23,040 nucleotides of DNA, from positions 1 to 23,040 of the IMG/VR virus record IMGVR_UViG_3300047287_000460; one strand, written 5' to 3'. This document shows, in pieces, positions 2,075 to 22,646 of this stretch. Numbering within the stretch: the stretch's first letter is position 1; every line of letters starts with the position of its first letter. Position numbers and translations under genes: made by a program. Source of the DNA: a virus. The notes beneath the pieces are model-generated. The model was not told the origin of the DNA. It did not search any database and worked only from the letters and a program-made list of their open reading frames with translations.

Positions 2075-2100
2075 GTATACATTATTTAGTTGGAGAAAAT

Positions 2101-8275: not shown

Positions 8276-8308
8276 CACCTTTTGGATTAAAACTATAGAT
8301 TATCTAGC

Positions 8309-8316
8309 GATAAATA
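8309..8316 (+). promoter_or_regulatory. Late promoter GATAAATA fused to a start codon
   Basis: GATAAATA matches the T4 late octamer at 7 of 8 bases. The next ATG (8322) follows after only 5 nt (TCTGT), where late transcription is expected to begin. It would drive the virion operon 8322-15226. No ribosome binding site is present. Confidence 0.7.
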
Positions 8317-8321
8317 TCTGT

Positions 8322-9020
8322 ATGAGTGTATATCTACAGCCCCGAAATCCAATAGGAAATCTCAATATTCTTGAGTTTCCTTATACGCCTCAGATTGAGT
8401 ACAGTCATGATGTCAAGTATGATGCATATTCGCTTACACATACTAATTATCAACCATATGCGTATGTTAAAAGCGAAAACCCAACAATCAGTATGAGTTG
8501 TAAATTCAGTGCCCATACAGCGGATCATTTTAAAATGAGTGAAAGGGCTATTAGATTTTTAAGAACATACACTAAAATGAACTATGGTAGAACTGATCCT
8601 GATAGAGGTCAGCCTCCTAGGATACTCAGATTGTTTGCTTATGGACAGCAAATGTTCAATGATGTCCCGGTTGTTATCAGCAAGTTTTCAATGACTTTTC
8701 CCGAAGATGTTGATTATGTTCAAGGAGAATTTTCTAACGATGGTGAATTCACTGGCGTGTCAACAAGGGACCCTGGCTTGCCATCAAATCAAAGAGGCAG
8801 AGATCCTAGACAGCAAGGAGCAGGCTATGGGCAAAGTACAGCTAAGTTTGCTGACAACGATCCTAGAAGAATAGATAGAGAAAGTTTTTCTTTGGCTTTG
8901 CCTATAATTTTTACAGTCAACATAAGTTTATTAATTCAACAAAACCTCAGCAAAACAGTTAATGAGTTTAATATCCAAGACTTTGCCTCCGGAAGCCTTG
9001 TTAGAAAAGGATACATTTAA
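8322..9020 (+). CDS. Baseplate/tail-tube initiator-like virion protein (gp48/gp54 type by position)
   Basis: A 232-residue protein beginning with YLQPRNPIGNLNILEFPYTP (residues 4-23), with a well-defined middle region including FLRTYTKMNYG (79-89) and GQPPRILRLFAYGQQMFNDVP (96-116), and a glycine- and charge-rich insert (about 140-180). I know this type from marine myoviruses next to gp53, but I cannot align it with a T4 protein by eye. Position suggests the role: in P2 and Mu a tube-initiator protein precedes the LysM, hub and spike genes, exactly the order here. It likely caps or starts the tail tube on the baseplate. It is the first gene of the late operon and its ATG lies 5 nt after a late promoter. 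Confidence 0.6.
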   Translation: MSVYLQPRNPIGNLNILEFPYTPQIEYSHDVKYDAYSLTHTNYQPYAYVKSENPTISMSCKFSAHTADHFKMSERAIRFLRTYTKMNYGRTDPDRGQPPRILRLFAYGQQMFNDVPVVISKFSMTFPEDVDYVQGEFSNDGEFTGVSTRDPGLPSNQRGRDPRQQGAGYGQSTAKFADNDPRRIDRESFSLALPIIFTVNISLLIQQNLSKTVNEFNIQDFASGSLVRKGYI

Positions 9021-9328
9021 TGGCACAAGTTATATACGATCAAAAAAGTTATTTGGCTAACACGCCATTTAAGAAATTTTATTTAGACAAAGCAAGACTT
9101 GCTTCGTTGTCAGATGCTGTTGGCAAAGAAGTAATTGTTCCTCCTGAGTGTGAACATAGAATTGATTTATTCAGTTATCAACAATACGGCTCGAGCAGAC
9201 TGTGGTGGGTTATTGCATTAGCAAATGCTGATTTGATCAAAGACCCTGTTTGGGATTTTAAATCAGGCATGACTATTTTAGTTCCTGATCGTGCTTTACT
9301 AAAAGAACAATACTCAGGGGTCAAGTAA
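9020..9328 (+). CDS. 53: gp53-like baseplate wedge protein (LysM-like)
   Basis: A 102-residue protein resembling gp53 of T4-like phages. The segment HRIDLFSYQQYGSSRLWWVI (46-65) followed by ANADLIKDP and a SGMTILVPD end is the usual pattern: aromatic tryptophan pair, a DP turn and a final hydrophobic strand. gp53 family proteins have a LysM-like fold and help hold wedges to the hub. The start codon overlaps the previous stop as TAATG, with AAGGA upstream, and the next gene overlaps in the same way, so the genes are coupled in one operon. Confidence 0.75.
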   Translation: MAQVIYDQKSYLANTPFKKFYLDKARLASLSDAVGKEVIVPPECEHRIDLFSYQQYGSSRLWWVIALANADLIKDPVWDFKSGMTILVPDRALLKEQYSGVK

Positions 9329-9951
9329 TGGCGGCAGTGACATCTCCATATGGATACCGTAAAGATCCAGTATCAGGAGCACCTAGTCAGTTTCACGCCG
9401 GTGTTGATTACAAAGCACCCGAAGGAACTCCTTTAGTTGCACAAAAACAAATGACCGTAGTAGATTCTAGATATAGTCCTAGTTATGGAAATGTTATAAC
9501 TACAAAAGATGCTGATGGCAACACTTATACTATGGCTCATTTAAGCAATAGAAAAGTGCAAAAAGGAGATACGATTCCTCCGGGTACTACTATGGGCTAT
9601 ACCGGCAACACTGGTTACAGCACAGGTCCGCACTTACATTATGAAGTGACTAATCCCAGCGGTAAAAAAATAGATCCGCAGTCAACTAATCCAGCAACAG
9701 GAAAGCCATACACAGATGATATAGGTTTTGAAAAAAATAAAGGATTAAATGAAAGCAAAGCTGTACCAGACAAAAATCACAAATGCCAAGGCAATGATGA
9801 GCACACAAACAAACCTGCTCCTCAAAAAGAATCACAACCAAACGCTTCTCCCGCGGCCAAATCTAAACCTGGAGAGAAATCCAAGACACCTCCTGCAAGA
9901 CCAAAAGCCGGAGATGTTGGTATATTGGAAAATCCTTTGAATAAACTATAA
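9328..9951 (+). CDS. M23 family peptidoglycan endopeptidase, virion-associated
   Basis: A 207-residue protein. Residues 5-108 form a lysostaphin-type M23 metallopeptidase with all zinc-site motifs: HAGVD (His23 and Asp27), a MAHLS histidine (His71) and GPHLHYEV (His102 and His104). The enzyme class cleaves peptide crosslinks in peptidoglycan. Residues about 125-207 are a low-complexity tail rich in Lys, Pro, Ser and Ala. There is no signal peptide, and the gene lies between gp53 and the hub, so it is probably a baseplate component that opens the wall during injection. The start overlaps the previous stop (TAATG) and the stop overlaps the next start. Confidence 0.88.
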   Translation: MAAVTSPYGYRKDPVSGAPSQFHAGVDYKAPEGTPLVAQKQMTVVDSRYSPSYGNVITTKDADGNTYTMAHLSNRKVQKGDTIPPGTTMGYTGNTGYSTGPHLHYEVTNPSGKKIDPQSTNPATGKPYTDDIGFEKNKGLNESKAVPDKNHKCQGNDEHTNKPAPQKESQPNASPAAKSKPGEKSKTPPARPKAGDVGILENPLNKL

Positions 9952-12900
9952 TGGCATACTACACTTATTATACACGGCTGACACTTATACATCCTAAAGA
10001 CATAGGTAAGATGGATCCTTCTGTGGGCAAAATCATCGCAGAAACTGCTACCACAGGTAAATTCATCATAGGCGATATAACCTGGGATAGTGCAGTAGCA
10101 TCAAATCCTATGACTACATTGGCTATGAACACACAAGGCGAAATAAAAATTTATGAACCCTTGGGCATGAGATTTTTAGATTACATTCGCTTTGCAGCCT
10201 TGGAGTGCGGAATTGAAAACCACTTGTCAGCGGCTTATCTTTTAGAGATTGAAATACTAGCAGAATCTTTACCAGATAATAAAGAGTTTAGATACATATG
10301 GCCTATCATGTTCTTAAGCACCGAAGCAAGAACAGGCGAAAAAGGAACAGAGTACGCTATTAAATTTGTACATCATAGTCATCATAGCCAAACTGACATG
10401 GTACAGCCTTTGAAAGAAACTTTAACTATCGACGGAGTCAGTAAGGTTGAAGAATATTTTAAAGAGTTTGGAAAAAGACTAGAACTAATGGAGTTTAAGT
10501 ATGCAGAAGCAGGACAAAAAGCCGGACCCGGCGGACAGCCTGGCGGTGACCATCCTGCGTCGTCTAGTCCCTATCACGACGAGTATCATTTTATTTTAGA
10601 TCCTCGTATTAAAGATTACACTTTTACCAGCAAAGATAGTGCAGATCCAGGCGTCAAAGGATCTTGGACTAACTATCTTCCTTTTACTACTAATAAATTT
10701 AATGTCTCGGCTCGTAGCGGAACAACTTTGATTAGTCAAGCACAGCGAGTTTTATCAAGCACTAACGAAGCCGCAAATTTATACTTGGAAGAATACGGCA
10801 GAATTCCTGGCGCAGGAAAATCTGGAAGCCAAAGCAGTGATGCAAACAAAGAAGCTCTTAAAAAAGCACTGGGTAAGATTTATAACTTTTTTAAGATAGA
10901 GTCGCATACAGTTTATAAAGAATTTGATTATATTAGAGGTCGTTATGCGGTCAAACATATTTTTATTATTTGGCTAGCACTACAACCTAACTTGTATCAA
11001 TACCCCGATGAACTAGATGAGTTGAATAAACCAGAGAACAAAGGAAAAGTAGAACAAAAATTAAAAGCTTATATTCAAGAAGGTTTGTTGAGAAAAGCTT
11101 ACTATTATACATACACTGGTTTAAACACAGAAATAATTAAATGTAATCTCACATTGAATCAAGCTTATTATCTGCCAAGCTTTCCTGTTATATGGACTGA
11201 GCGAGGATCTACTGGTCCAGGTAAAATGAAGCCTTATAATTTTAGCAGAGAAATAAGTCCTTACTCTAGAACTGCTGCTGACGAAAAAAATGCACAAGCC
11301 TTGGCAGATGCACAAGCGGCAGCAAGAAAATTAAGCCAGCAAGCTCAAAATGAAAAAAATGAATCAAAGAAAAAAGAACTTGTAAAGCAACAAAAAGAAA
11401 AAGAAAAATTAGTAGAGGAACTAAAAACTAGAAAAAGTGCTAGCGGTACAACTAGTTCAACTAATAAAAATCAGTTAACCAATAGAAGTGATTTGTTAAA
11501 GTCATTGAGTAATTTGTACATTGAAGATGTCGATTATCAAAGCGGATTACAAGCCAGCGCTCAGGCAACTCCTTCGTTAAGGCCTCGAGTAGAACCAGAT
11601 ACTCCTGTCAGCAAGTTAGATACTAAAAAAGATGAAAATGAAAATCTAATGGATAAAATTTTTACAGTTCAGCTTGCGGCAAGAGATTTACTAGAGTTGG
11701 AAATGGAAGTTCGCGGCGATCCTTATTGGCTAGGACAACCTAATATGTGTTTAGCAGGGTTGCCAAACTTAGATAAGCTAGATTTACCTCCAGCATTAAA
11801 AGCCGAACTTGAAAGTAAAATTCCTGAGATAGATCCAGATTTTTCAAACCGAAATTCTTCTTGGGGCAACTACGGTAACGGCGCTAAGTTTTATAAAGGT
11901 GGTAACTTATTCTACTTCAATGCACAACTTCCTGTAAATGATTTTGGACAAGATGACTTAATGAAGTTTGACCAAATAGATCAAATACTAGGCATTTACA
12001 TGGTGCAGTCATGTAAAAACGAATTTAAAAACGGGCAATGGACACAGGTTTTAAAGTGTATAAGAGATTTGACTATTCCAAGTAAGTTTATTCCTAGGGC
12101 AAGTATAGGAGAAACAACATTTCAGGACTATGTGAATCAAGCAACATCAGATCCCAATAGAGCCCTTGACTCGTTTAATCAAAATCGTTCGGATCAGATA
12201 GACCAAAGGAATCAAGAAGCAAGTAGTCAAGGCTTTGCCAATACCGGCGGCGGAGCAGCCACAGGCAATCCTATAATAGCTCGCGGAACACAACAAGGAA
12301 ATCCTAATATTAGACCTGGTAGCTTGCGTGACCGTGCCGCACAGGCCAACGCGGCCAGAGCAGCAGAAGCTAAAGAAAAATTAAACACTGGACTTACAAA
12401 TAATCCGCCACCGCCCTGTGATTCGCCAGTAGATAATGCAGTTAAATCAACAACGAAAGGTCCGGGTAATAATTCTTTTAGCGTCGGTACTTTTGAAGTA
12501 ACAGTTCCATTAAGCAAACAAGAAGCATATTCAATGGCCAAGCAACAGTTCTATGATCAAGTAAATGCTTTCTTTAAACATTTAGAAAAGCTTAACATCC
12601 AAGCTTATAAAGATGCTGGCATTGTTGATTATGTTCCTTACAAAGGCGAGACAATGGCTGGTTTAGTTATTCAAAGAAGCGGTAGCGGCGGCTTAGAAGA
12701 TTGGAAGAAAAATAATACTAAGCCAGGACCTTGGGCAATTAATAACCCAGGTGGCTTGGGCTATGATTCTTCTAAGGGAACTTATACTTCGTACAATTCG
12801 TTCTACGAAGGTTTACTTGCTGTAAATAGTTATTATAATTATTGCGAGGGTGTTCCTTCTAACGGAAAACAAGGCTCTGATAGATTCTTACTTCCTGCTG

Positions 12901-12959
12901 ATAATACTACAAACGAATTGGAATATATTCAACTTAAATCTAAAGGATCTAAATTGTGA
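9951..12959 (+). CDS. Very large baseplate hub protein (gp27-like by position)
   Basis: A 1002-residue protein between the M23 peptidase and the spike, the place of the hub (T4 gp27, P2 gpD). The segment LLELEMEVRGDPYWLGQPNM (about 574-593) resembles the final hub domain of gp27-like proteins. A charged helical insertion (about 443-500, Lys-, Glu-, Gln- and Ala-rich) and a low-complexity region (about 745-830) interrupt it. The last 75 residues contain WAINNPGGLG (928-937), followed by an aromatic- and glycine-rich stretch. This recalls the NNPGN motif of phage lysozyme-like or transglycosylase domains. T4 gp27 is only 391 residues, so this hub carries extra domains. The lytic reading of the C-terminus is weak: the motif is GG not GN, and no catalytic glutamate could be assigned. 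Start is TAATG-coupled. Confidence 0.6.
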   Translation: MAYYTYYTRLTLIHPKDIGKMDPSVGKIIAETATTGKFIIGDITWDSAVASNPMTTLAMNTQGEIKIYEPLGMRFLDYIRFAALECGIENHLSAAYLLEIEILAESLPDNKEFRYIWPIMFLSTEARTGEKGTEYAIKFVHHSHHSQTDMVQPLKETLTIDGVSKVEEYFKEFGKRLELMEFKYAEAGQKAGPGGQPGGDHPASSSPYHDEYHFILDPRIKDYTFTSKDSADPGVKGSWTNYLPFTTNKFNVSARSGTTLISQAQRVLSSTNEAANLYLEEYGRIPGAGKSGSQSSDANKEALKKALGKIYNFFKIESHTVYKEFDYIRGRYAVKHIFIIWLALQPNLYQYPDELDELNKPENKGKVEQKLKAYIQEGLLRKAYYYTYTGLNTEIIKCNLTLNQAYYLPSFPVIWTERGSTGPGKMKPYNFSREISPYSRTAADEKNAQALADAQAAARKLSQQAQNEKNESKKKELVKQQKEKEKLVEELKTRKSASGTTSSTNKNQLTNRSDLLKSLSNLYIEDVDYQSGLQASAQATPSLRPRVEPDTPVSKLDTKKDENENLMDKIFTVQLAARDLLELEMEVRGDPYWLGQPNMCLAGLPNLDKLDLPPALKAELESKIPEIDPDFSNRNSSWGNYGNGAKFYKGGNLFYFNAQLPVNDFGQDDLMKFDQIDQILGIYMVQSCKNEFKNGQWTQVLKCIRDLTIPSKFIPRASIGETTFQDYVNQATSDPNRALDSFNQNRSDQIDQRNQEASSQGFANTGGGAATGNPIIARGTQQGNPNIRPGSLRDRAAQANAARAAEAKEKLNTGLTNNPPPPCDSPVDNAVKSTTKGPGNNSFSVGTFEVTVPLSKQEAYSMAKQQFYDQVNAFFKHLEKLNIQAYKDAGIVDYVPYKGETMAGLVIQRSGSGGLEDWKKNNTKPGPWAINNPGGLGYDSSKGTYTSYNSFYEGLLAVNSYYNYCEGVPSNGKQGSDRFLLPADNTTNELEYIQLKSKGSKL

Positions 12960-15226
12960 CAAAAGTAGCTGGTGCATATGGACAAGCTAGGACTCCTAGC
13001 AACTACTCTAATACGGCAACAAACTCAATGGGTGTGGCCAGTAGCACCGGTGTCTATATTGGTATAGTTAAAAATAACAAAGATCCGCAGAACATGGGCA
13101 GACTGCAAGTTTGGATACCAGATATGGGTGGTAATCCTGAAGACCCGAATAACTGGCAAAGTGTTGCGTATGCAAGTCCTTTCGGCGGAAGCACAAGTAT
13201 TTTTGATCAAGGTGCCAATGTAAAAGAATACAGCGACACCATGAAAAGCTATGGATTATGGTTTGGTTCACCAGACATCGACACTCATGTTTTGGTAACA
13301 TTTGCCGGAGGCAGATTAGACAAGGGTTATTGGTTTGCTTGCTTGTTCCAGCGCGGTACACAAGTAAGTATTCCAGGCATACCTGCAAAAAATACTTACG
13401 CTGGGGAAAATGTTCCAGCTGCTCCTAAAAACAAAAAAGATGACGATCCTGATTTAGAAAAATATGTAGAACACAAACCCATGCACGATGCTTTAAAAAA
13501 GCAAGGCTTGGAAAAAGACAGCCTAAGAGGTTTAACTTCCAGTGGTGCGACCAGAGAAAGCCCTAGCAAAGTGTTTGGTTTGTTAACACCAGGCCAGCAT
13601 CAATTTGTTTTAGACGACGGCGACAAAGACGGCAAGAACAAACAAATAAGACTTAGAACAACAAATGGCGTTCAGTTATTATTAGACGACACTAGCGGGC
13701 ATGTTTACATCATTAGCAAGGACGGAGAAAACTGGCTGGAGTTAAGCAATGACGGACAAGTTCATATCTATGGTTCCAAAGACATTAATATTAGAAGTGA
13801 AGCAAACATAAACCTTAGAGCTGACAAAAGTGTTAACATAGAAGCAAAAGAAAATATACAACTCAAAGCAGGAAAAAATATTGCGTTAGAAGCCAACGAA
13901 AATATTTCCACTAACGCAGCCAAAGATACTTTAATTACCAGCGGAGACACTAGCAATATTAGTAGTGTTAGCGGACACTATGAAACTGCGGGTGTTATTC
14001 ATATGAATGGTCCAGCAGCCGAACAAGCGAGTGTTCTTGAACTTAACACATTGCCGGTCAATCAAAGCGTTAAAGAAAGTATATGTACCACTGTTCCGGA
14101 ACATGAACCATGGGCAGCTCATACAGGAGAAATAAATCCTACAGGAGCCGGTAATAAGCAAATGAAAGAAGATCCTGCACCCGAGCAACAATCTCGACAG
14201 CCAGAAGAAGGCGAACAAGGAGCTCCAGTTGATACTTCTAAATCTGAAAAAGCTGAAGAAGTTCCAGTAGAAGATGCAGCAGCCAGTGACAAAACTATTG
14301 ACATGATCAAAGATGAAAACGGCTTTAGTCCTGTTGCCACAGATGACGCCGACGGACAAAGTGCAGGTTTTGGTTCAGAAGTAAATGATGAATCAGAAGA
14401 TACATTAGAAAATCCTAACACTTTACTAAGCGATATTCCGGATAATTCCGTTGACACTGTTTCTTTAAGCGAAGACGGCAGTATTAAAAAATCAAGCCCT
14501 GGCAAAGATTTACTTAACTCTATGGGTTTTGGAAATTCAAGCAACGACAACGGAAAGTTTGCTCAACAATTAAGCCAAGAAACTCGTTTGAAAAATGATT
14601 TTGCATCTATGCCTATTGTAGGTAGAAATGAACCAAACAATCAAGATAATATTTTCACAAACGGTGTTAGCGCAGATCGAGCAAATCAACTGCTAGCAAA
14701 TGATATTACACAAGCAGAAAAAGAAGTTAAGAATACACTCAAGGGCGTTGATAAGGTTCCGCAAAATGTATTTGATGCATTAGTAAGTATGCAAAACCAA
14801 GTAGGCGATGTTAGCTATGCTTATGTAAAAGGCGAAAAAATTGACCTGACTGGTCTTTATAGAAACGGCGAATGGGATAGAGCCGCAAGCTTTATTGCCG
14901 CAGACGAACGAGATAGACCTAGACGAATCAGAGAAGCTAATTTGATTATCAACAACAACTATGGCAAGTCTTCAAGTCAGGAAGATATTGTTACATCAGG
15001 TTTGAACAAAACCGATGAACTAATTGCTAAAGGAAAACTAAATGCACAAACAGGAAAGCCTGCCAGTTCATTACAAGTGCAGGCCGCAAGCAATAGTTAT
15101 TTTGAACAAACAGGCAAGCTTATGCCAAGCTTAAGTTCGGGCGCTAAAATTAATGTTATTGATAATCTAGGAACAGGCAGTCTAGCTAAATTTGTCAAGC
15201 GTCAAGCTGGTCCATGGCCTTATTAA
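12956..15226 (+). CDS. 5: gp5/VgrG-like tail spike protein with C-terminal lysozyme-like lobe
   Basis: A 756-residue spike. Residues about 30-135 are an OB fold (GVYIGIVKNNKDPQNMGRLQ and following), as in gp5 and VgrG. Residues about 265-350 are a beta-helix with regular repeats of the form N-I-x-L-x-A-x-x-x, as in the gp5 needle. PEHEPWAAH (381-389) follows. Residues 390-540 are an acidic, low-complexity linker. Residues about 570-670 resemble the C-terminal lobe of T4-type lysozymes: a helix with ANDITQAEKEV, then FDALVSM, then ERDRPRRIREANLI. The N-terminal Glu-Asp-Thr catalytic stretch of those enzymes is not visible. In T4 the lysozyme lies between OB and needle; here it lies after. The start is GTG, overlapping the hub stop by GTGA. 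Confidence 0.85.
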   Translation: MTKVAGAYGQARTPSNYSNTATNSMGVASSTGVYIGIVKNNKDPQNMGRLQVWIPDMGGNPEDPNNWQSVAYASPFGGSTSIFDQGANVKEYSDTMKSYGLWFGSPDIDTHVLVTFAGGRLDKGYWFACLFQRGTQVSIPGIPAKNTYAGENVPAAPKNKKDDDPDLEKYVEHKPMHDALKKQGLEKDSLRGLTSSGATRESPSKVFGLLTPGQHQFVLDDGDKDGKNKQIRLRTTNGVQLLLDDTSGHVYIISKDGENWLELSNDGQVHIYGSKDINIRSEANINLRADKSVNIEAKENIQLKAGKNIALEANENISTNAAKDTLITSGDTSNISSVSGHYETAGVIHMNGPAAEQASVLELNTLPVNQSVKESICTTVPEHEPWAAHTGEINPTGAGNKQMKEDPAPEQQSRQPEEGEQGAPVDTSKSEKAEEVPVEDAAASDKTIDMIKDENGFSPVATDDADGQSAGFGSEVNDESEDTLENPNTLLSDIPDNSVDTVSLSEDGSIKKSSPGKDLLNSMGFGNSSNDNGKFAQQLSQETRLKNDFASMPIVGRNEPNNQDNIFTNGVSADRANQLLANDITQAEKEVKNTLKGVDKVPQNVFDALVSMQNQVGDVSYAYVKGEKIDLTGLYRNGEWDRAASFIAADERDRPRRIREANLIINNNYGKSSSQEDIVTSGLNKTDELIAKGKLNAQTGKPASSLQVQAASNSYFEQTGKLMPSLSSGAKINVIDNLGTGSLAKFVKRQAGPWPY

Positions 15227-15480
15227 TCGCCAACTTCTTCTAATATAGGAAGATCTTCTACGCCATAGGTCACTTCGTAGAAGCGGCCGTTGTGTTCGTA
15301 TTCGTCTGTCCAGAATCTTTGATTGTTAGACGAACAAATAGGATCTTTAAGACTTAGCACCATCATCATATGCTTGTACTCATCTCCTTCTAATTGTCGC
15401 TTAGGAGGACCTAATACCCGTCGTAAAAACGCCCGAGCTTCTTCGGGCGTCATGTTTAATACATTAGTCTTTTTTGACAT
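15223..15480 (-). CDS. Conserved-looking small protein, unknown function
   Basis: An 85-residue protein, unrecognised. Its N-terminus contains TPEEARAFLRRVLGPP (residues 11-26) and its C-terminus is acidic with aromatic residues (RFWTDEYEHNGRFYEVTYG). It overlaps the end of the MazG-like gene by 17 nt and its stop codon overlaps that of the convergent spike gene by 4 nt. It is the last gene of the long minus-strand module. A GC-rich hairpin (15430-15449) lies within its start region. Confidence 0.65.
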   Translation of the reverse strand: MSKKTNVLNMTPEEARAFLRRVLGPPKRQLEGDEYKHMMMVLSLKDPICSSNNQRFWTDEYEHNGRFYEVTYGVEDLPILEEVGD

Positions 15481-15835: not shown

Positions 15836-16062
15836 GTTGTTAGCTTTTCTATAAATTCTTCATGCACTGGTTGATGGGCAACGGGCAATAGCCATCCATT
15901 GTTAACGCATTCAGCTATAATTATTTTATATTCTCTTGGGCACTGTTCGTTAATTTGAAAGCTGGCTCTCGGAACCAGCATAATGTTATCTGGACTGAAA
16001 TGAAAATCAGGATCCTTATTGGTATAAGTTTTAAATTTTTTACCAGGATTGCTATAGCTCAT
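15832..16062 (-). CDS. Small protein of unknown function
   Basis: A 76-residue protein with no motif that I recognise. It contains a KTYTNKDPDFHFSPDN segment (residues 11-26) and a likely strand and helix region around YKIIIAECVNNGWLLPVA. It overlaps genes on both sides by 4 nt (ATGA), which is strong support that it is translated. No Shine-Dalgarno sequence is clear, so it depends on coupling. Confidence 0.65.
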   Translation of the reverse strand: MSYSNPGKKFKTYTNKDPDFHFSPDNIMLVPRASFQINEQCPREYKIIIAECVNNGWLLPVAHQPVHEEFIEKLTT

Positions 16063-16292
16063 TTTTTAAGATTGTCCATGACTAATTTTTCTGCTTCGTC
16101 TTGTATACGCTTTTTATTGTATTCCACGGCTTTGATAAACATCATGTCAATTAGTTCAGCCATGACCTTTTTTCCAGAATCTTCTAAATGAGAATACGCC
16201 GGGGTACTGCTAACATAGCTGTATTCTCTACTTTTAATAAGACTGAATAGTTGTGCCGAAAGCACATGTCCGATGTCTTTGTCAGAAAGCAT
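16059..16292 (-). CDS. Small helical protein of unknown function
   Basis: A 77-residue protein, starting MLSDKDIGHV and ending in a charged helix rich in Lys and Glu (about 50-77). The frame is open further upstream to an ATG at 16508, but that extension overlaps the better-supported 16294-16587 gene over its whole length. The internal ATG at 16292 is preceded by AGAGAGG and lies one base after that gene's stop, so it is chosen as the start. Function unknown. Confidence 0.7.
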   Translation of the reverse strand: MLSDKDIGHVLSAQLFSLIKSREYSYVSSTPAYSHLEDSGKKVMAELIDMMFIKAVEYNKKRIQDEAEKLVMDNLKK

Positions 16293-16293
16293 T

Positions 16294-16587
16294 TTAACCT
16301 CTCTTAAGCATTTCGAGGAATACGATTTTGCCAATGCTTTCTCCAAAATCCTCGTCACTCGTAATAATATGTAAGCTTCTAATCCAGCGATCTTTGCTTT
16401 CATCGTAGTTCTTAACTTCGACAATTTTGCCTCCATTTGCGTTATAAACAGTAAAATTAAATGAATCATTGCCTTCGTCCGGGGCTCTACTAGAAAGAGT
16501 TGCACCACGACTTATCTTGTTGGCAGCTATAGCCGGGGTTTCGTTGTGCAAAAAGTTATAAAGTAATTGTCTTAGCCATTGTTTCAT
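16294..16587 (-). CDS. Conserved marine-phage protein of unknown function
   Basis: A 97-residue protein. The segment FTVYNANGGKIVEVKNYDES (residues 45-64) and the later SLHIITSDEDFGESIGKI (70-87) match a small protein family that I know from many T4-like marine phages. An N-terminal WLRQLLYNFL helix precedes it. The role is unknown. It overlaps its upstream neighbour by ATGA and is followed one base later by the next start. Confidence 0.75.
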   Translation of the reverse strand: MKQWLRQLLYNFLHNETPAIAANKISRGATLSSRAPDEGNDSFNFTVYNANGGKIVEVKNYDESKDRWIRSLHIITSDEDFGESIGKIVFLEMLKRG

Positions 16588-16844
16588 TTTGGTCCATAGC
16601 CTAATTGATTGAGATAAAATGATGCTACCCTTAGCATGTTCTCTGCATGTTCTTTATTTCTAGGAAGAACTATGCTAGCTCCATTATATAGGTTTCCGAC
16701 ATCTTTGTCGAGCTCTTTTGCAACAGCATTTCTCCATTTCTCGGCAGATTCCTGATCATCAAACCTGGGACTAAATTCGATATTTTCATCGTAGTCATCA
16801 ACCCAAATCCATTCGCTGTCAAATTCATCGTATATAAGTTTCAT
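16584..16844 (-). CDS. Small acidic protein of unknown function
   Basis: An 86-residue protein, strongly acidic at the N-terminus (EFDSEWIWVDDYDENIEF, residues 7-24) and helical after that, ending in a QLGYGPK tail. Tryptophan- and aspartate-rich openings like this can mimic nucleic acid, but that is only a speculation. An excellent GGAGG ribosome binding site lies 4 nt before the ATG. It directly follows the 16845-17102 gene with no spacing. Confidence 0.65.
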   Translation of the reverse strand: MKLIYDEFDSEWIWVDDYDENIEFSPRFDDQESAEKWRNAVAKELDKDVGNLYNGASIVLPRNKEHAENMLRVASFYLNQLGYGPK

Positions 16845-17102
16845 TTAACCTCCGTGTTTGAGTACATATAGCAAAACATCTTCTCCGCCGATGATAACCA
16901 TTTGGTGGCCGTATTCAAGATAAGTTTTATCCTTGCCGCTCCAAGTTTTTTGCTTTTTGACAGGCTCTACACGAACCATCTTAGGAGTTAGAGATTTAAT
17001 TGTGCAAATCTTTAAACCAGACGCTCCTGCACTTACTGCTACAGGCATGCCCACTGCAAGTTCTCGTCCCAGTATGTCGAGATGCGGATTAGCGTCGTTC
17101 AT
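16845..17102 (-). CDS. Small SH3/KOW-like beta-barrel protein
   Basis: An 85-residue protein beginning HLDILGRELAVGMPVAVS (residues 7-24). This is the LGRE-x-x-VG-x-x-V opening of small beta-barrel proteins found in many T4-like phages. Strands with alternating hydrophobic residues (IKSLTPKMVRVEPV) follow. Barrels of this kind often bind RNA or DNA, but no specific role can be given. It overlaps its upstream neighbour by ATGA. Confidence 0.65.
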   Translation of the reverse strand: MNDANPHLDILGRELAVGMPVAVSAGASGLKICTIKSLTPKMVRVEPVKKQKTWSGKDKTYLEYGHQMVIIGGEDVLLYVLKHGG

Positions 17103-17338
17103 TTTAAAGCCTTTACATCTTTGTGTTTAACAATAATTATATCATGGAATTTGCCATCGTGTTTGATAGGCAAGTCCGAAAACACACTAATGCGTGGCCC
17201 TTCGATTTCGCTGATCAGTGTATCATTGCCCACAGTTCCTCGAAATGGAATGCCATTCCATTTTCCCATTACACGGTCGCCGATAAAGTATGTCGGATGA
17301 TACCGATGCTTGCTAAAATACTCAGCAAGGTTTCCCAT
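17099..17338 (-). CDS. Conserved small beta-rich phage protein
   Basis: A 79-residue protein opening with LAEYFSKHRYHPTYFIGDRV (residues 4-23), then GKWNGIPFRGTVGNDT. I recognise this opening from hypothetical proteins shared by marine myoviruses. The GDRV and GTV turns suggest a small beta-barrel like that of its neighbour (16845-17102), so the two could be diverged relatives; their similarity is limited to these turns. A weak AAGGA ribosome binding site precedes the ATG. Confidence 0.65.
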   Translation of the reverse strand: MGNLAEYFSKHRYHPTYFIGDRVMGKWNGIPFRGTVGNDTLISEIEGPRISVFSDLPIKHDGKFHDIIIVKHKDVKALK

Positions 17339-17347
17339 AGAAATCCT

Positions 17348-17590
17348 TTATTTGTTGCGTATTTCTCTACCAACTGTCATAGTTCGAGATAGAGATTTTT
17401 TAAAAATGTACTTTGAGATGGCATGCGGCCACCTAGACATCAAAAAAGGAAAAACCGCGTGAATCAAACTGACCACTGCAAGTACAGTGACGCTACAAGT
17501 AATCCACAGGTTAAATTTAAGATGTTCGAAGTAGCTTTCGTTTACTTCTTTTAAGTGGTTAAAATTAACCAAGTGTTTTTTGTCTTCCAT
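17348..17590 (-). CDS. DUF6356-like small membrane protein
   Basis: An 80-residue protein with one clear membrane segment, LWITCSVTVLAVVSLIHAVF (28-47). The pattern before and after it, HLKEVNESYFEHLKF (12-26) then HAVFPFL (44-50), fits the DUF6356 family as I remember it (short inner-membrane proteins with YFEH and H-A-x-F-P-F motifs). Function of the family is unknown. The C-terminus is basic and would lie in the cytoplasm under the positive-inside rule. Its ATG starts on the base next to the stop of the upstream 54-residue gene. Confidence 0.65.
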   Translation of the reverse strand: MEDKKHLVNFNHLKEVNESYFEHLKFNLWITCSVTVLAVVSLIHAVFPFLMSRWPHAISKYIFKKSLSRTMTVGREIRNK

Positions 17591-17755
17591 TTATCGTTGA
17601 TCTTTAAAAAGTTTTGTTATTAAAAAGTAAATCAGTAAGGCTACGCCTTGGAAATATGTTCTTTCAAATGCGGTGTGGTAATCGTATGTGCCATGTGTAA
17701 ATTGATAAGAAAAGTTGCCAAGTCCTAGTGCCAAAAAAATAAGAAATGTTTTCAT
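17591..17755 (-). CDS. 54-residue membrane protein of unknown function
   Basis: A short gene from ATG 17755 to TAA 17593-17591. The protein starts MKTFLIFLALGLGNF, a hydrophobic N-terminal segment, and has a second membrane segment GVALLIYFLITKLF (37-50) with a basic end. A GAGG ribosome binding site sits 6 nt before the ATG, and the stop abuts the start of the DUF6356-like gene, so the two membrane proteins are probably made together. A weak late-like promoter lies 30 nt upstream. Phage holins and inner-membrane accessory proteins can look like this, but nothing specific supports either. Confidence 0.6.
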   Translation of the reverse strand: MKTFLIFLALGLGNFSYQFTHGTYDYHTAFERTYFQGVALLIYFLITKLFKDQR

Positions 17756-17784
17756 GTTTGACCTCAAAAAGTTCTTTAGACAAG

Positions 17785-17792
17785 TATTTACA
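17785..17792 (-). promoter_or_regulatory. Possible late promoter variant TGTAAATA
   Basis: TGTAAATA on the minus strand shares the TAAATA core of the late octamer. It lies in the only sizeable spacer of this minus-strand module (17756-17821) and 29 nt before the 54-residue gene. Two bases differ from TATAAATA, so this is a weak call. Confidence 0.25.
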
Positions 17793-17821
17793 CAGAGTAG
17801 TACTAGTAATAAAGGCTACTT

Positions 17822-18028
17822 TTAATCTTGCTCAAAGTACTCCTTGATTTGCATGGCCGCATCTTTTAAAGTGGCATCTTGCACATCTTTATAAGGACCG
17901 ATTAACGGCATAGATAAACAAACTTTAGCGCACTCTTTGATAATTAGCTCAGCAAAGTATTCAATTGACTCTTCTTCTTTGTTTAAGAAACCAGCTTGTT
18001 CAGCAAGTTCTTTGATTTTTTTACTCAT
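17822..18028 (-). CDS. Small paralogue 1 of an IKELAEQA...FAELI family
   Basis: A 68-residue helical protein with N-terminal KKIKELAEQAG (residues 3-13), then EYFAELIIKECAKVC (23-37) and a C-terminal IKEYF (61-65). The same three landmarks recur in the genes at 18032-18319 and 18479-18784. This type is common in T4-like marine phages, with unknown function. It is spaced 3 nt from the next gene upstream. Confidence 0.7.
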   Translation of the reverse strand: MSKKIKELAEQAGFLNKEEESIEYFAELIIKECAKVCLSMPLIGPYKDVQDATLKDAAMQIKEYFEQD

Positions 18029-18031
18029 TGT

Positions 18032-18319
18032 TTATTTTCGAGTTCTAATGGTTCGCAAAATTCTGTCCACATTATCTACTGGAGCATCTTTAACTCCAAA
18101 ATGGTCTTTAACTTCTTTAGAAGTTGGCCAAGCATCATCGTTATCAGTGGCCTTACACATAAAGTCATACATTTCATCCACAATCAACTCTACAAACTTT
18201 TCCAAAGTCTCAGGCGGGTCAAAGGTAATATATGCTTTTGGGTTGACAACATCATTTTCAAGTCGTTGCCAAAACTCGCCGCCTGCTTGCAGAGCAAGTT
18301 CTCGAATACGATCGTTCAT
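18032..18319 (-). CDS. Small paralogue 2 of the same family
   Basis: A 95-residue protein with the family landmarks: NDRIRELALQAG (2-13), EKFVELIVDEMYDF (40-53) and VKDHFGVKD (70-78), followed by a 17-residue basic tail. A 26-residue insert lies between the first two landmarks compared with paralogue 1. The start ATG overlaps the stop of the 58-residue gene as ATGA and uses a GAGGTCAAA ribosome binding site located inside that gene. Function unknown. Confidence 0.7.
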   Translation of the reverse strand: MNDRIRELALQAGGEFWQRLENDVVNPKAYITFDPPETLEKFVELIVDEMYDFMCKATDNDDAWPTSKEVKDHFGVKDAPVDNVDRILRTIRTRK

Positions 18320-18492
18320 TCTTTTGACCTCAACATTTCAAATAACTCTTTTCCGAGTTTATTTTTGAATTCTTCCTCAGTCATATGGACAAGAGTATCC
18401 ATGGCCAGTTCCATTGGCAATCTCAATACAATTTCCATTTCTGGAGCAAAGGTATCAGGATTCATTTTTATGTGTCTGCTAATTAGTTTCAT
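18316..18492 (-). CDS. 58-residue protein of unknown function
   Basis: A short gene between two paralogues, from ATG 18492 to TGA 18318-18316. The protein begins MKLISRHIKMNPDTF and continues with a hydrophobic stretch and a charged helix (EEEFKNKLGKELFEML, 39-54). It overlaps the previous gene by 14 nt and the next by 4 nt. A GGAG sequence lies 6 nt before the ATG. It carries the ribosome binding site of paralogue 2. No family recognised. Confidence 0.6.
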   Translation of the reverse strand: MKLISRHIKMNPDTFAPEMEIVLRLPMELAMDTLVHMTEEEFKNKLGKELFEMLRSKE

Positions 18493-18784
18493 TCTTCACT
18501 CCTAGTAATTCTTTGATTAGGGTCTTTTTATCTTCCGTGCTCATTCCATGAAGTCCGAAATGTTCTTTAATCTTATCACCAATATCAGCATTATAATAAA
18601 ATTCAGTTCCTTCATTAGATGATTTACTGCCTGTATTACTCTTGTCAGCAATATTAATACATTCTTTCACAATCAACTCTGCGAACTTTTTACGATTAAA
18701 CGATTCAGCAGTGGCAGTGCCATTCAACCCACATTTTACAATGTCTGTTGCTTGTTTTTCAAGTTCCTGAATTCTTTCGTTCAC
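18479..18784 (-). CDS. Small paralogue 3 of the same family
   Basis: A 101-residue protein with NERIQELEKQA (2-12), KKFAELIVKECINIA (32-46) and IKEHFGLHG (72-80), the same three landmarks as the genes at 17822-18028 and 18032-18319. It starts with GTG, overlapping the ligase stop as GTGA and following a GGAG sequence. The region between landmarks is Ser-, Asn- and Gly-rich. Function unknown. Confidence 0.7.
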   Translation of the reverse strand: MNERIQELEKQATDIVKCGLNGTATAESFNRKKFAELIVKECINIADKSNTGSKSSNEGTEFYYNADIGDKIKEHFGLHGMSTEDKKTLIKELLGVKNETN

Positions 18785-20103
18785 AGTTTTTCTCCTGCTT
18801 CAAATCCACGGAAGCGAAGGAAACGGGGAAAGCGGAGGCTGTAAGTGCCGTCTTGATTTTGTGTAATAGCGTCGGCTCTTACTTCAACAAGCTGACCAGC
18901 CAGTCGATCACGACCAGCCCAATAGGAAATCCTATCGCCATCAGTAAAACCACTCCCACAATTAACTTTAATAGTTCGTCCGTCGTCGACTCCTGAGAGG
19001 ACAAGCGCCCCCAGTCGTCCTGCATATTTTCCTGTTCCTTCTTCGACATCTGTTACCTCCAAAGTTACTTCAATAAAAGGTTTGAGTTTGAGCCAGCTAA
19101 CTGAGCGTTTGCATTCGTAGGGAGCATCAATGTCTTTGATCATAATGCCCTCATAACCGCCGTCAATCGCCGATTGGTTAATAGCACGGAAACGCTTTTG
19201 ACCTTCACTAGTATTTAAGTCAACTAGCTCTTGTGCCAATGTGCGGAAGTTAGGCAATGCTTCGATGTTGCCGTTATACCATTCCTTGAGCCACTCACTG
19301 CGCTTAACTTGTGTAATTTTGCACTTGCCTTGTTCAAAGTCGGACAATGGCAGTGCGTCAAACAAGTAAAGTAATGCGTCTTTGGCATCAACATCACTCT
19401 TACGATGCACCTGCTTCATCAAGTCTTGGAAGCTAGTGCTCATTACTTCGCCGTCTAGCACCATGGGCACAGTAAAGCCAGAAGCCACTGCGGCAAGTTG
19501 TTCCTTAAGGTGCGGAAAGTTTACAAGTTCTTTACCGTTACGGCTATACTGATCAACACGCCCATCTGGATAAACAACAGTGATAATGCGGACCCCGTCG
19601 AGTTTAACTTCGATAAGTTTGCGTCCAGATACTTTCGATTCATGATTAGCACTATCATGAGCAAGCTGACAAGAAAAAATTGGTACAGCATATTTAGGCC
19701 ATTTCCTTTCTACAACCTTGTTGATTGTCTTTTCGCTGACGCCGCAACGAAGATCCTTGATAAGGATGCGACGATACCATCCGTTCCACTGCGATTTTGT
19801 AGCCTGAGCCATTAGTTGTGCTACAACATCACGAGCGGAATTACCGGTACATGCCCGGTTAATAAAAAGTTGTACAGCAGTGTTAAATGATGCCCAATCC
19901 AAGCCGGGACCATCTGTATCTGCATCTTTTTTCTCGGGAATTTGTTTAAGCCCAAATGTAATCATTGGGTCCATTGCCAAACGAACACCGTTAAAAAATT
20001 CGTCATTGCCTGCTTCCGCTTGAGCAAGAATAATAGCTTCTTTGTTCAAACGGCTAGGGTGATCTTCCAAACTAGAAATAACATATTGGCAGGGATCGCT
20101 CAT
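18781..20103 (-). CDS. 30: ATP-dependent DNA ligase (T4 gp30-like)
   Basis: A 440-residue nucleotidyltransferase. The active-site motif EVKLDGVR (165-172) places the AMP-accepting lysine at 167. Motif III LDGEV (216-220), a motif IIIa YLFDA, motif IV YEGIMIKD and motif V WLKLKP follow in order, and an OB-like C-terminal domain ends the protein. Residues 1-150 form the helical N-terminal region with WNGWYRRILIKDLRCGVS, as in T4 ligase. The enzyme seals nicks with ATP and would join Okazaki fragments and recombination products. T4 ligase has 487 residues, so this is somewhat shorter. It has a full-consensus sigma-70 promoter and a GAGGT ribosome binding site, suggesting early expression. The small minus genes follow it closely. 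Confidence 0.93.
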   Translation of the reverse strand: MSDPCQYVISSLEDHPSRLNKEAIILAQAEAGNDEFFNGVRLAMDPMITFGLKQIPEKKDADTDGPGLDWASFNTAVQLFINRACTGNSARDVVAQLMAQATKSQWNGWYRRILIKDLRCGVSEKTINKVVERKWPKYAVPIFSCQLAHDSANHESKVSGRKLIEVKLDGVRIITVVYPDGRVDQYSRNGKELVNFPHLKEQLAAVASGFTVPMVLDGEVMSTSFQDLMKQVHRKSDVDAKDALLYLFDALPLSDFEQGKCKITQVKRSEWLKEWYNGNIEALPNFRTLAQELVDLNTSEGQKRFRAINQSAIDGGYEGIMIKDIDAPYECKRSVSWLKLKPFIEVTLEVTDVEEGTGKYAGRLGALVLSGVDDGRTIKVNCGSGFTDGDRISYWAGRDRLAGQLVEVRADAITQNQDGTYSLRFPRFLRFRGFEAGEKL

Positions 20104-20132
20104 TTAGACCTCGAAAATTGTTTAATGCAAGT

Positions 20133-20161
20133 ATTATAGCACGGCACAGAATTTATGTCAA
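20133..20161 (-). promoter_or_regulatory. Full-consensus sigma-70 promoter for the ligase operon
   Basis: On the minus strand TTGACA (20161-20156), exactly 17 nt of spacer, then TATAAT (20138-20133): both hexamers and the spacing are ideal. The expected start is near 20126, leaving a leader of about 23 nt with GAGGT before the ligase ATG at 20103. This is the strongest host-type promoter in the window. Confidence 0.88.
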
Positions 20162-20176
20162 TTAATGGCGAATTAT

Positions 20177-20184
20177 CGTAAATA
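20177..20184 (+). promoter_or_regulatory. Possible late promoter variant CGTAAATA
   Basis: CGTAAATA shares the TAAATA core of the late octamer and lies 18 nt before the ATG of the 2OG oxygenase gene. An AAGGAG ribosome binding site (20192-20197) follows. Two bases differ from TATAAATA. Confidence 0.35.
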
Positions 20185-20202
20185 CGCTAACAAGGAGCAA
20201 AT

Positions 20203-20922
20203 ATGGAAGATCCAAAAACCAATGTAGTGGTTCCGCCAGGAATCAGCGGCAGAAAACCCAAATATGAAATTGAAAAACAATCTCTAGAAATAGTAGCAAA
20301 TGAATTAGCATTGTTAAGTTTGGGCGACTGCGAACCTTTGACTTGGAAAATAGACCAAGGTGCGTTTATGCACGAAATCAAGCAGTTTGAAAATGATTGG
20401 GTTGACTACTTGCCAAGAACGGATCGTGTTAACAGTCGTAAAGCGTTAGCACTTACTAATTTACCAGGAATGACACACAGGGATAACCCTAGCCACGCCC
20501 AAGCATGTTATGCCGCTGGCAGATATGTTAAAGAGGAAGAATTTTGTGTACCCACAGATGTTTATAAAGCTTGCCCAAGCTTACACAATTTGTTAGATAC
20601 TTTTGCACCTTTGGGCAGGACATTTTTAGTTAAATGTGGCACTGGAGGATACTTTGTTCCGCACAGAGACCATCCTGCAAGTCCCAGGGACAGCCTGAGA
20701 ATAATTGTGTTTTTAAATAATTGCGATACCTATGAGTATGATTGGATTTTTGGCGCAGACAACAAAATTCCAATTGAAATTGGTCGTGCTTACTATGCCA
20801 ACACCAAGAAGACTCACAGAACAGTTAGTTGGGTTGACGAAAGTATTCACTTAATCATAAATGTTCCATTTACTTCAGAGAATGTGTCAAAGGTTATTGC
20901 ACACCTCAAGCATCCGCACTAA
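20203..20922 (+). CDS. 2-oxoglutarate/Fe(II)-dependent oxygenase (aspartyl/asparaginyl hydroxylase-like)
   Basis: A 239-residue protein with the iron-binding facial triad of double-stranded beta-helix oxygenases. HRD gives His154 and Asp156 in GGYFVPHRDHP (148-158), and His205 lies in KKTHRTVSW (202-210). SLRIIVFLNN (164-173) holds an arginine that may bind 2-oxoglutarate. The family hydroxylates proteins or small molecules; aspartyl/asparaginyl beta-hydroxylase is the nearest type by motif. 2OG oxygenases are frequent in marine T4-like phages and their substrates are mostly unknown. The gene stands alone on the plus strand, with its own ribosome binding site (AAGGAG) and a strong terminator just after it. 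Confidence 0.8.
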   Translation: MEDPKTNVVVPPGISGRKPKYEIEKQSLEIVANELALLSLGDCEPLTWKIDQGAFMHEIKQFENDWVDYLPRTDRVNSRKALALTNLPGMTHRDNPSHAQACYAAGRYVKEEEFCVPTDVYKACPSLHNLLDTFAPLGRTFLVKCGTGGYFVPHRDHPASPRDSLRIIVFLNNCDTYEYDWIFGADNKIPIEIGRAYYANTKKTHRTVSWVDESIHLIINVPFTSENVSKVIAHLKHPH

Positions 20923-21349
20923 ACTGTTTAACCAGTTCTAAAAATGAATCTTCTAAAGGCAACTCGAAAGGTTGCCTTTTTAGTTTATAGTTGGCTTTTT
21001 TGGCAGAGATGAGTAGTTGCTTAATTTCTAAAATACTTTTTTCTATGGCTTGAGAATCTGTGTCATTGGCTATAAGATAAAAAGATTCTAACTCTGAAAG
21101 TCTTTGGTTAAGATACTCTATATGTTCTTCATTGGCTGTAATACCCAACTCGAATTTTTTAAGTTTTGTGTGCAAGGAAACTGTAACTTTGAGCTGTCCC
21201 AGGTCGACGCTGAGGCCGTCTAGTGCTTGATAAGAAGCGTTTGGATACAGCTCCACCGCTCTACTATGAGAATTTAAAAGTTGCCTGTTGATCTGCGATA
21301 TCAACAGCTCCAACGAATCTATGGTAAAATTATTCCCAGTGTATTTCAT
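20906..21349 (-). CDS. Helical protein of unknown function
   Basis: A 147-residue protein, largely helical. Residues about 60-120 have heptad-like spacing of Leu, Ile and Glu, suggesting a coiled coil. A YPNASYQALDGLSVDLGQLK segment (about 35-54) lies in the first third. Its last codons overlap the end of the convergent oxygenase gene by 17 nt, and they carry that gene's terminator hairpin. The start overlaps the end of the DUF465-like gene by 20 nt. No family recognised. Confidence 0.65.
   Translation of the reverse strand: MKYTGNNFTIDSLELLISQINRQLLNSHSRAVELYPNASYQALDGLSVDLGQLKVTVSLHTKLKKFELGITANEEHIEYLNQRLSELESFYLIANDTDSQAIEKSILEIKQLLISAKKANYKLKRQPFELPLEDSFLELVKQFSADA
20955..20981 (+). terminator. 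Intrinsic terminator of the 2OG oxygenase gene
   Basis: AAAGGCAAC (20955-20963) pairs with GTTGCCTTT (20971-20979) around a 7-nt loop and runs into a short T tract on the plus strand. It lies 32 nt after the oxygenase stop, inside the coding end of the convergent minus gene. Confidence 0.8.
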
Positions 21350-21539
21350 TCATCAGCTCGTGTCGTTTTCGGTAACAGCGACCAAGCTCATCTTTGATTT
21401 TGAGCTTTTGTTTTTTAAGTTCTTCGACTTCAAATTCATTCCAGCTTTTTTGCTTGAGCATTTTTTCCAATTGGTATTCTATCGTACTATGTTGGTTAGT
21501 CAGTGTTCGGATGTGGCGCTCTAAAGAATCTATGTCCAT
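21330..21539 (-). CDS. DUF465/YdcH-like small protein
   Basis: A 69-residue two-helix protein: IDSLERHIRTLTNQHSTIEY (3-22), then EVEELKKQKLKIKDEL (about 39-54). The spacing of LE-x-H and LKKQKLKIKDE matches the DUF465 (YdcH) family of short bacterial proteins with unknown role. The open frame extends upstream to 21740, but that extension overlaps the HNH gene and its promoters. The ATG at 21539 has an ideal GGAGG ribosome binding site, so it is taken as the start. It overlaps the next gene by 20 nt. Confidence 0.75.
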   Translation of the reverse strand: MDIDSLERHIRTLTNQHSTIEYQLEKMLKQKSWNEFEVEELKKQKLKIKDELGRCYRKRHELMNEIHWE

Positions 21540-21569
21540 GGTAAAATCCTCCAAAAAAATTGTTGAAAG

Positions 21570-21598
21570 TTGACACAATATATTTAATAGCGTATACT
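21570..21598 (+). promoter_or_regulatory. Sigma-70 promoter upstream of the HNH gene
   Basis: TTGACA (21570-21575), a 17-nt spacer and TATACT (21593-21598) form a near-consensus promoter on the plus strand. The expected start near 21605 gives a leader of about 30 nt that contains the late promoter box. Confidence 0.6.
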
Positions 21599-21622
21599 TG
21601 TTTTTCCTGGCATTTTTTTGAT

Positions 21623-21630
21623 TATAAATA
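21623..21630 (+). promoter_or_regulatory. T4-type late promoter TATAAATA fused to the HNH start
   Basis: An exact TATAAATA octamer. The HNH gene ATG (21637) follows after 6 nt, at the expected transcription start, with no ribosome binding site between them. Confidence 0.75.
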
Positions 21631-21636
21631 TACAAA

Positions 21637-22173
21637 ATGAGTGATACACTACTTTTAAACAGCGACGGACAGCCTTTGAGTATGCTGCCTCCCAGTGTGA
21701 TTGATTGGCAAATGGCTATCAAACTTGTGTTTTTGAACAAAGTTCATGTAGTCAAAGAGCACAACGATTGGGAAGTTCATAGTCAACATTTGGCTATGAA
21801 AGTTCCTAGCATTGTAATGACTCGAAGATATGTGCGCCCAAAGCACAGAGTCCTATTCAACCGAAAAATGATTTATCTTCGGGACAATTACACTTGCCAA
21901 TACTGCGGCGATCAATTTACAGCCAAAGAATTAACTTTGGATCATGTTAAGCCAAAAAGTCTCGGCGGCGGTAGCACATGGAGTAATTTGGTAACTTGTT
22001 GTGGTACTTGTAATTGGCTAAAAGGTGCTAAAGCAATGGAACCACTGACATTGCCCAAAGAACCCAGCTATTGGCAAATGGTTAGAACTGCTAAAAAGTA
22101 TCCATATATGATGCGCGATCCTGCTTGGGCAGAATACTTGGGCTATGAAGAACAAGAAGTAAGAGCCGCATAG
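21637..22173 (+). CDS. HNH endonuclease
   Basis: A 178-residue protein. The HNH core lies at about 80-130: a zinc knuckle CQYC (87-90), LDHV with Asp102-His103, an asparagine at 117 (SNLVT) and the second knuckle CCGTCN (121-126). HNH nucleases cut DNA with a single metal. The first 75 residues form an N-terminal domain ending in RPKHRVLFNRK, a pattern seen in many bacterial and phage HNH proteins. It could be a free-standing homing endonuclease, or a nuclease working in packaging or host DNA degradation; context does not decide. It has both a sigma-70 and a late promoter and is closed by a strong terminator, so it is an independent unit placed ahead of gp25. Confidence 0.88.
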   Translation: MSDTLLLNSDGQPLSMLPPSVIDWQMAIKLVFLNKVHVVKEHNDWEVHSQHLAMKVPSIVMTRRYVRPKHRVLFNRKMIYLRDNYTCQYCGDQFTAKELTLDHVKPKSLGGGSTWSNLVTCCGTCNWLKGAKAMEPLTLPKEPSYWQMVRTAKKYPYMMRDPAWAEYLGYEEQEVRAA

Positions 22174-22190
22174 GTCAACAACATCTTTTA

Positions 22191-22217
22191 AAAGGACGCA
22201 GCCAGCGTCCTTTTTTT
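22191..22217 (+). terminator. Strong intrinsic terminator after the HNH gene
   Basis: AAAGGACGC (22191-22199) pairs with GCGTCCTTT (22205-22213) around a 5-nt loop, followed by a run of T residues to 22217. It lies 18 nt after the HNH stop and separates that gene from gp25. Confidence 0.92.
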
Positions 22218-22246
22218 ATGACCATTAACAGCTAACATTATTTTAT

Positions 22247-22254
22247 AATAAATA
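22247..22254 (+). promoter_or_regulatory. Late promoter AATAAATA fused to the gp25 start
   Basis: AATAAATA matches the late octamer at 7 of 8 bases. The gp25 ATG (22260) follows after 5 nt (CTAAC), at the expected start site. No ribosome binding site is present. Confidence 0.7.
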
Positions 22255-22259
22255 CTAAC

Positions 22260-22646
22260 ATGAGAACTTTTAAAGGCTTTAGCACAATCAATCGCCAATA
22301 CGGTAACTTCAAGCTTTATGACAAAGAGCTTGCGCTCCGTGACTTATTAAACGAATTATACACTAGAAAAGGTGAGCGTTTAATGAGTCCTTCGTATGGT
22401 TCTATTGTTTGGGATTTGTTATTTGACCCACTTATAGACGCCGTAATCGAAGCAATTACCGATGATTGTCGCAGGATTGTCGATAAAGACCCAAGGCTAG
22501 AATTAATTCAGGTTTTAGTAACAGAATCTGTTGACCAGCAAAGCGTTCAAGTAACGCTGGTGCTAAGATACCTCCCAACATCTACAGTAGAAGAACTTGT
22601 TGCGACATTCAACAGAAATACAGATATTGAACGCACAGAAGGATAA
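22260..22646 (+). CDS. 25: gp25-like baseplate wedge protein
   Basis: A 128-residue protein of the GPW/gp25 family. The segment LYDKELALRDLLNELYTRKG (19-38) and then GERLMSPSYGSIVWDLLFDP (38-57) are the usual signature, with a later DPRLELIQVLV strand. gp25 is the most conserved wedge protein; it joins the sheath to the inner baseplate ring together with gp6 and gp53. It heads a late transcript: a late promoter lies 5 nt before the ATG. gp6 follows after 3 nt. Confidence 0.93.
   Translation: MRTFKGFSTINRQYGNFKLYDKELALRDLLNELYTRKGERLMSPSYGSIVWDLLFDPLIDAVIEAITDDCRRIVDKDPRLELIQVLVTESVDQQSVQVTLVLRYLPTSTVEELVATFNRNTDIERTEG

Follow-up and report, generated by a model that had tools for sequence, protein, structure and literature searches.

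It is very likely that, in this phage and its relatives, late promoters of the gp55 type are fused to the AUG start codon under selection, which would give leaderless initiation beside late mRNAs led by a Shine-Dalgarno (SD) sequence. More than one third of the predicted late promoters in this phage and its relatives sit about 5 bases before a start codon. The window analyzed here is the whole of the complete virus record IMGVR_UViG_3300047287_000460 (23,040 bases), which probably covers only part of a larger genome. It encodes a late sigma factor gp55 of 286 codons (7380..8240, minus strand; phrog_12791, E=8e-79), which would read the late boxes of the window and is longer than T4 gp55 by ~100 residues. 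In the profile search of the window the gp55 gene adjoins the first of the boxes that lie close to an ATG (8309), and such searches also identified gp46/gp47-like recombination genes, a DNA ligase gene and a gp5-like tail lysozyme gene. No close DNA relatives of the window were found in the named phage collection. The closest named gp55, in Pseudomonas phages of the PA5oct group, shows 51% identity, and identity to uncultured IMG/VR contigs, several of them of 128-236 kb, reaches 82-88%. We used as a comparison set 12 near-clade contigs (uncultured IMG/VR) and 3 more distant contigs (266-327 kb).

ATAAATA occurs at exactly four sites on the two strands of the window (2053, 8309, 21623 and 22247). 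The window bears two marks of T4-type late promoters, namely the T4-type octamer NATAAATA 5′ of late genes and a gene for a gp55-type sigma factor. The box GATAAATA (8309..8316, plus strand) is separated by the 5-nt spacer TCTGT from ATG 8322, where a virion structural protein gene begins (8322..9020, plus strand; phrog_12050, E=8.8e-40), and the box AATAAATA (22247..22254, plus strand) by the 5-nt spacer CTAAC from ATG 22260 of the baseplate wedge gene gp25 (22260..22646, plus strand; PF04965, E=4.5e-9; phrog_43, E=1.3e-13). Both genes are the first of a virion operon and are predicted to be leaderless, with +1 at the A of ATG 8322 and of ATG 22260, respectively. The box TATAAATA (21623..21630, plus strand) stands with the 6-nt spacer TACAAA before ATG 21637 of an HNH endonuclease gene (21637..22173, plus strand; PF14279, E=7e-16; phrog_16726, E=6.5e-37), for which a leader of 0-1 nt is predicted. 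All three close ATGs (3/3) lack an SD, as AUG starts of leaderless mRNAs do. The remaining box, also TATAAATA (2053..2060, plus strand), lies 40 nt before ATG 2101 of a late baseplate hub protein gene with a normal leader (2101..2943, plus strand; PF12322, E=1.8e-16; phrog_150, E=5.6e-21), whose SD, TTGGAG (2090..2095, plus strand), is kept in relatives. The sequence-only reading had described three boxes 5-6 nt before an ATG without SD, a fourth with a normal leader and GGAG, and lead genes that open two virion operons, and direct reading of the boxes, spacers and starts bears it out on all these points. That three of the four boxes should lie 5-6 nt before an ATG that opens an ORF is improbable by chance (P = 1.6e-6): when the motif is scrambled into other 7-mers of equal composition, 0.74% of the near-clade sites are followed by such an ATG at 5 or 6 nt; within the window itself, this is true of none of the 217 scrambled-motif sites. 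A minus-strand box CTAAATA (2083-2089) faces the 2053 promoter and serves a divergent gene starting at 2038. This facing box (TATTTA before the SD) is kept in most relatives, and between the facing boxes an inverted repeat is frequent, as judged by eye, with its sequence changing on both sides across relatives.

To obtain the distribution of spacings among relatives, ATGs opening at least 60 codons were tallied at each distance 3′ of every ATAAATA, and the expectation was taken from 18 scrambled motifs of the same composition, two one-base shifts being left out. The genome-wide count of this distance had been proposed in the sequence-only reading, and the excess that it foresaw is evident in the near clade: among 261 ATAAATA sites on the 12 contigs, 55 have an ORF-opening ATG at exactly 5 nt, against 1.0 expected (P ~6e-77). 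In the distant clade the corresponding numbers are 18 of 175 sites against 0.7 expected. Scrambled motifs and reversed patterns together rule out chance as the source of the 5-nt spacing. The near-clade site counts are not independent events because contigs within the clade are related, and 255 of 265 sequence contexts are distinct. The spacing from box to ATG falls into two parts, one at 4-8 nt, mainly 5, and one at 16 nt or more, with the range of 9-15 nt nearly empty between them; the first part, i.e., the predicted leaderless class, makes up 78 of the ~203 box-associated genes in the near clade. Some sites are spaced 4 or 7-8 nt and would need a shifted transcription start or a leader of 2-3 nt. 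ATAAATA is also about threefold rarer in the near clade than its scrambled counterparts (261 sites vs a mean of 787). This fits a functional signal that is avoided elsewhere, and it suggests avoidance of stray late promoters. The relaxed boxes CTAAATA, GTAAATA and TTAAATA show a modest excess at 5 nt as well; a generally relaxed box is not supported, as other single-base changes are mostly without excess at this distance.

The spacing is conserved to different degrees among gene families. In the family of the 8322 gene, every near-clade ortholog compared has a spacing of exactly 5 nt, even where the box reads CTAAATA, and the spacers themselves diverge (TCTGT, TCATT, ATGAT, TAGTT, CTAGC, GTGTT and others). 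For gp25 it is 5 nt in the near-clade orthologs that hold the gene, and in most of the distant contigs it is 4, 5, 7 or 8 nt, where the N terminus of the protein also differs. The HNH gene (21637) has the least conserved spacing among the three close sites of the window, with 5-6 nt in some relatives, often behind a TTAAATA or GTAAATA box, and 10-14 nt in others. Because of this spacing conservation, we regard two of the window sites as strong and the HNH site as moderate. The led hub gene has 31-53 nt and GGAG in most relatives. Genes predicted to be leaderless in relatives include those for a tail fibre, an endolysin, a virion structural protein, a DNA methyltransferase, radical-SAM proteins and a cysteine dioxygenase, and the leaderless class is thus broad.

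The late octamer of T4 occupies positions -13 to -6 (PMC1524935); with a spacer of 5 nt, +1 therefore coincides with the A of the ATG. That +1 lies six nt after the octamer in the present phages as well is an offset taken from T4, and it is backed indirectly by two patterns. Immediately before the ATG, the 5-nt group has T in 78% and C in 17% of the cases (T/C in 95%) and never G; this would be the usual pyrimidine-purine initiator and supports a T4-like geometry independently of T4. Where late genes have short leaders (14-24 nt), the SD core starts before offset 5 in only 2 of 89 cases and its offsets show a sharp peak at 6-7, so that the SD lies just inside the predicted transcript, which also places +1 independently of T4. 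The nearly empty range of 9-15 nt would be where a leader is too short to hold an SD and likewise supports a T4-like +1. The SD of led late genes situated 14-24 nt from the box begins at the predicted +2/+3, and the short-leader message would therefore start almost directly with its SD. Sequence evidence from many genomes thus lends strong support to the claim that the mRNAs should begin with the A of the start codon or a base very near it.

These observations can be put together as follows. Phage gp55 together with the host RNA polymerase would read the box, and transcription would start 6 nt past the octamer, at the A of the start codon when the spacer is 5 nt long and one base before that A when it is 6 nt long. 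The resulting late mRNAs would have a leader of 0-1 nt and be initiated without an SD, probably by 70S ribosomes that bind the 5′-terminal AUG; led late genes would use the same promoter but with room for an SD. Selection would then hold two designs, one in which the AUG is at or no more than 3 nt past +1 and no SD is present, and one in which the SD is found from +1 onward. The parts of this account that we infer are the actual 5′ ends, the use of the promoters by gp55 and leaderless translation.

It is improbable that other, upstream promoters also or mainly transcribe these genes, which would make the leaderless mRNA a minor product. In cyanophages, a gene can be served by an early as well as a late promoter (PMC2984593), and two of the promoters in the window carry an extra conserved element, TTAA-N8-ATTATY, which may be a second promoter element or an activator site. 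It reads TTAA-N8-ATTATC at 8287..8304 (plus strand), 5 bp before the 8309 box, and TTAA-N8-ATTATT at 22225..22242 (plus strand), 5 bp before the 22247 box of the gp25 promoter. Among the promoters of the 8322 and gp25 families, 15 of 18 have the element at a fixed spacing of about -35 to -18, and it was found at none of 57 other leaderless promoters and at 1 of 104 led promoters. It is hence confined to these two families and cannot be a general upstream element of leaderless promoters; apart from the 8322 and 22260 families, most late promoters here have no conserved upstream element. Late promoters of T4 have no conserved -35 element (PMC7892883), and the two window promoters differ from them in this respect. 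Transcription mainly from elsewhere, however, would produce a longer transcript with no SD to use, and in the near clade the element occurs mainly with the box at fixed spacing. In addition, 8322 and 22260 are virion genes and are expected to be late.

Genome compaction provides a second explanation, in which the missing leader is a by-product of squeezed-out intergenic DNA. Phage genomes are compact, and the box of gp25 in distant-clade contigs frequently shares bases with the stop codon of the preceding gene. We nevertheless hold this to be very improbable: the upstream gap is larger at leaderless than at led promoters (median 62 vs 31 nt), and the smooth spread of distances predicted by compaction contrasts with the spike at 5 nt and the gap at 9-15 nt. 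Compaction also concerns the cause and not the mechanism, and the mRNA would be leaderless either way.

Several lines of evidence indicate that the ATGs close to the boxes are true starts. In the near clade, 55 of the 61 ATGs at 5 nt (90%) open at least 60 codons, compared with 18.5% of all ATGs. An SD within 20 nt is found in 4% of the genes at 4-8 nt (3/78 and 2/45), in 72% and 66% of those at 16-45 nt, and at 14% of random positions. An SD-backed internal start within 30 codons is present in only 1 of 122 leaderless genes, which excludes reassigned downstream starts as a general account. Genes 8322 and 21637 have no SD-backed internal start within 60 codons, and gene 22260 has one only at codon 41, the use of which would delete one third of gp25; a reassignment of the window starts to positions behind a ribosome binding site, which would have spoken against the sequence-only reading, is thus not indicated. 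Orthologs of the 8322 protein and of gp25 are conserved from the predicted start methionine. In Pelagibacter myophage HTVC008M, 8 of 8 box-N4-Y-ATG sites are annotated CDS starts, including those of gp25, a tail tube cap gene and a DNA end protector, and in Mosig 6 of 7 box-N5-ATG sites in the stretch read are, including that of a DNA end protector; the gene calls of both phages are predictions, and the gene-finding references for Mosig include a program that models leaderless genes. In view of these starts, and of led late promoters that have no ATG at +1, there is hardly any chance that the ATG at 5 nt reflects solely an initiator preference (Y-A-T-G around +1) with translation starting elsewhere, although the -1 base is indeed strongly T/C.

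T4 late transcription is the textbook system, and its late genes have ordinary leaders. The promoters described here resemble those of T4 (TATAAATA, with gp55/gp33/gp45) in an octamer with a free first base, a gp55 homolog and virion genes 3′ of the boxes. Unlike in this phage and its relatives, however, none of the 65 ATAAATA sites in T4 has an ORF-opening ATG at 4-8 nt; the corresponding numbers are 1 of 59 in S-PM2, 2 of 145 in PA5oct and 12 of 45 in HTVC008M. A systematic leader/no-leader design of the kind predicted here is absent from T4 itself. The excess of exact box-N5-ATG over a reversed-pattern control is shared with the window clade by the Pelagibacter myophages HTVC008M (8 vs 0) and Mosig (8 vs 0) and by the Methylophilales phage Melnitz (4 vs 0), which are distantly related to the window clade and have smaller genomes; in HTVC008M the spacer preferentially opens with G. 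Erwinia phage Hallingskeid, with 3 such sites vs 1 reversed pattern, is assigned to neither group, and no excess in pattern counts was found in Syn9, KVP40, 121Q, ACG-2014a, S-SSM7, PhiW-14, a Vibrio Ackermannviridae phage, XbC2 and an Aeromonas phage. The spacing of the gp25 box differs among related marine phages, being 5 nt in HTVC008M, 8 nt in Mosig and 16 nt in Melnitz, where the leader contains the SD AGGAG.

Leaderless mRNAs are known from lambda cI and from many mycobacterial genes. The messages predicted here are similar to such bacterial and phage examples in having the AUG at or near the predicted 5′ end and no SD, but differ from them in that a whole class of phage late promoters is involved, with a fixed box-to-AUG geometry and mixed with SD-led genes, and in that the 5′ ends are predicted. 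For leaderless mRNAs in general, 70S-type initiation is expected (PMC9031893). The giant phage AR9, which has its own RNA polymerase, is also a large phage with defined late promoters; its transcription starts have been mapped, and its 5′ UTRs are 26-491 nt long with no leaderless late class (PMC5312081), but its polymerase and promoters differ from those of the window phage. A search of the open-access literature brought up no earlier description of leaderless late mRNAs for phages of the T4 type. In the phages described here, which come from water samples, the promoter of that textbook system stands at a fixed distance from the start codon of many genes and is fused to it. Should mapping of the 5′ ends confirm the prediction, the way in which translation is initiated would be set by promoter sequence alone, and two virion operon heads would be leaderless. 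Prediction of late promoters in pelagimyophages was reported to be unsuccessful (PMC7029224), and the box-to-ATG spacing offers a practical guide for placing starts and late promoters where prediction failed. Cultured Pelagibacter phages allow a direct test, and the natural fusions of promoter and start codon form a set in which leaderless translation can be studied.

As to function, the sequence-only reading proposed that leaderlessness might reserve translation for late messages. This part is not supported, because late genes are a mixture of leaderless and led ones: ordinary leaders, mostly with an SD, precede about 60% of the late genes that have a box, including the hub gene at 2101. The second proposal of that reading, that ribosomes accepting leaderless mRNA might be favoured, is likewise not supported as worded. 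A more speculative and somewhat doubtful extension is that several lineages of the T4 superfamily (the uncultured jumbo-type clade, its distant relatives and the Pelagibacter myophages) might practice late translation in two modes. In one, used by ~35-40% of the late promoters, a selected spacer of ~5 nt would fuse promoter and AUG, and in the other the start would lie at or before the SD. One sigma factor would then divide the late genes between a 70S/leaderless and a 30S/SD class, each with its own response to the ribosome state of the dying host. A general link to phage-encoded initiation factors was also considered and was rejected, since IF3 and bS21 are encoded together in only one of the six near-clade relatives searched. 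The two genes adjoin in one relative (17029-17801) and in Atu_ph07 (NC_042013), and bS21 occurs without IF3 in several other relatives. The IF3 of the relative is too distant from its best matches to name a host (~50% to Myxococcales/Deltaproteobacteria and 40-47% to Pelagibacteraceae). N termini of the type M[KR]xxE[FLI][LI]xE, which we take to resemble the capsid-targeting sequences of T4, are found in 9 of 43 leaderless genes of the distant clade, compared with ~0.3% of other ORF starts, and the same tendency is weaker in the near clade.
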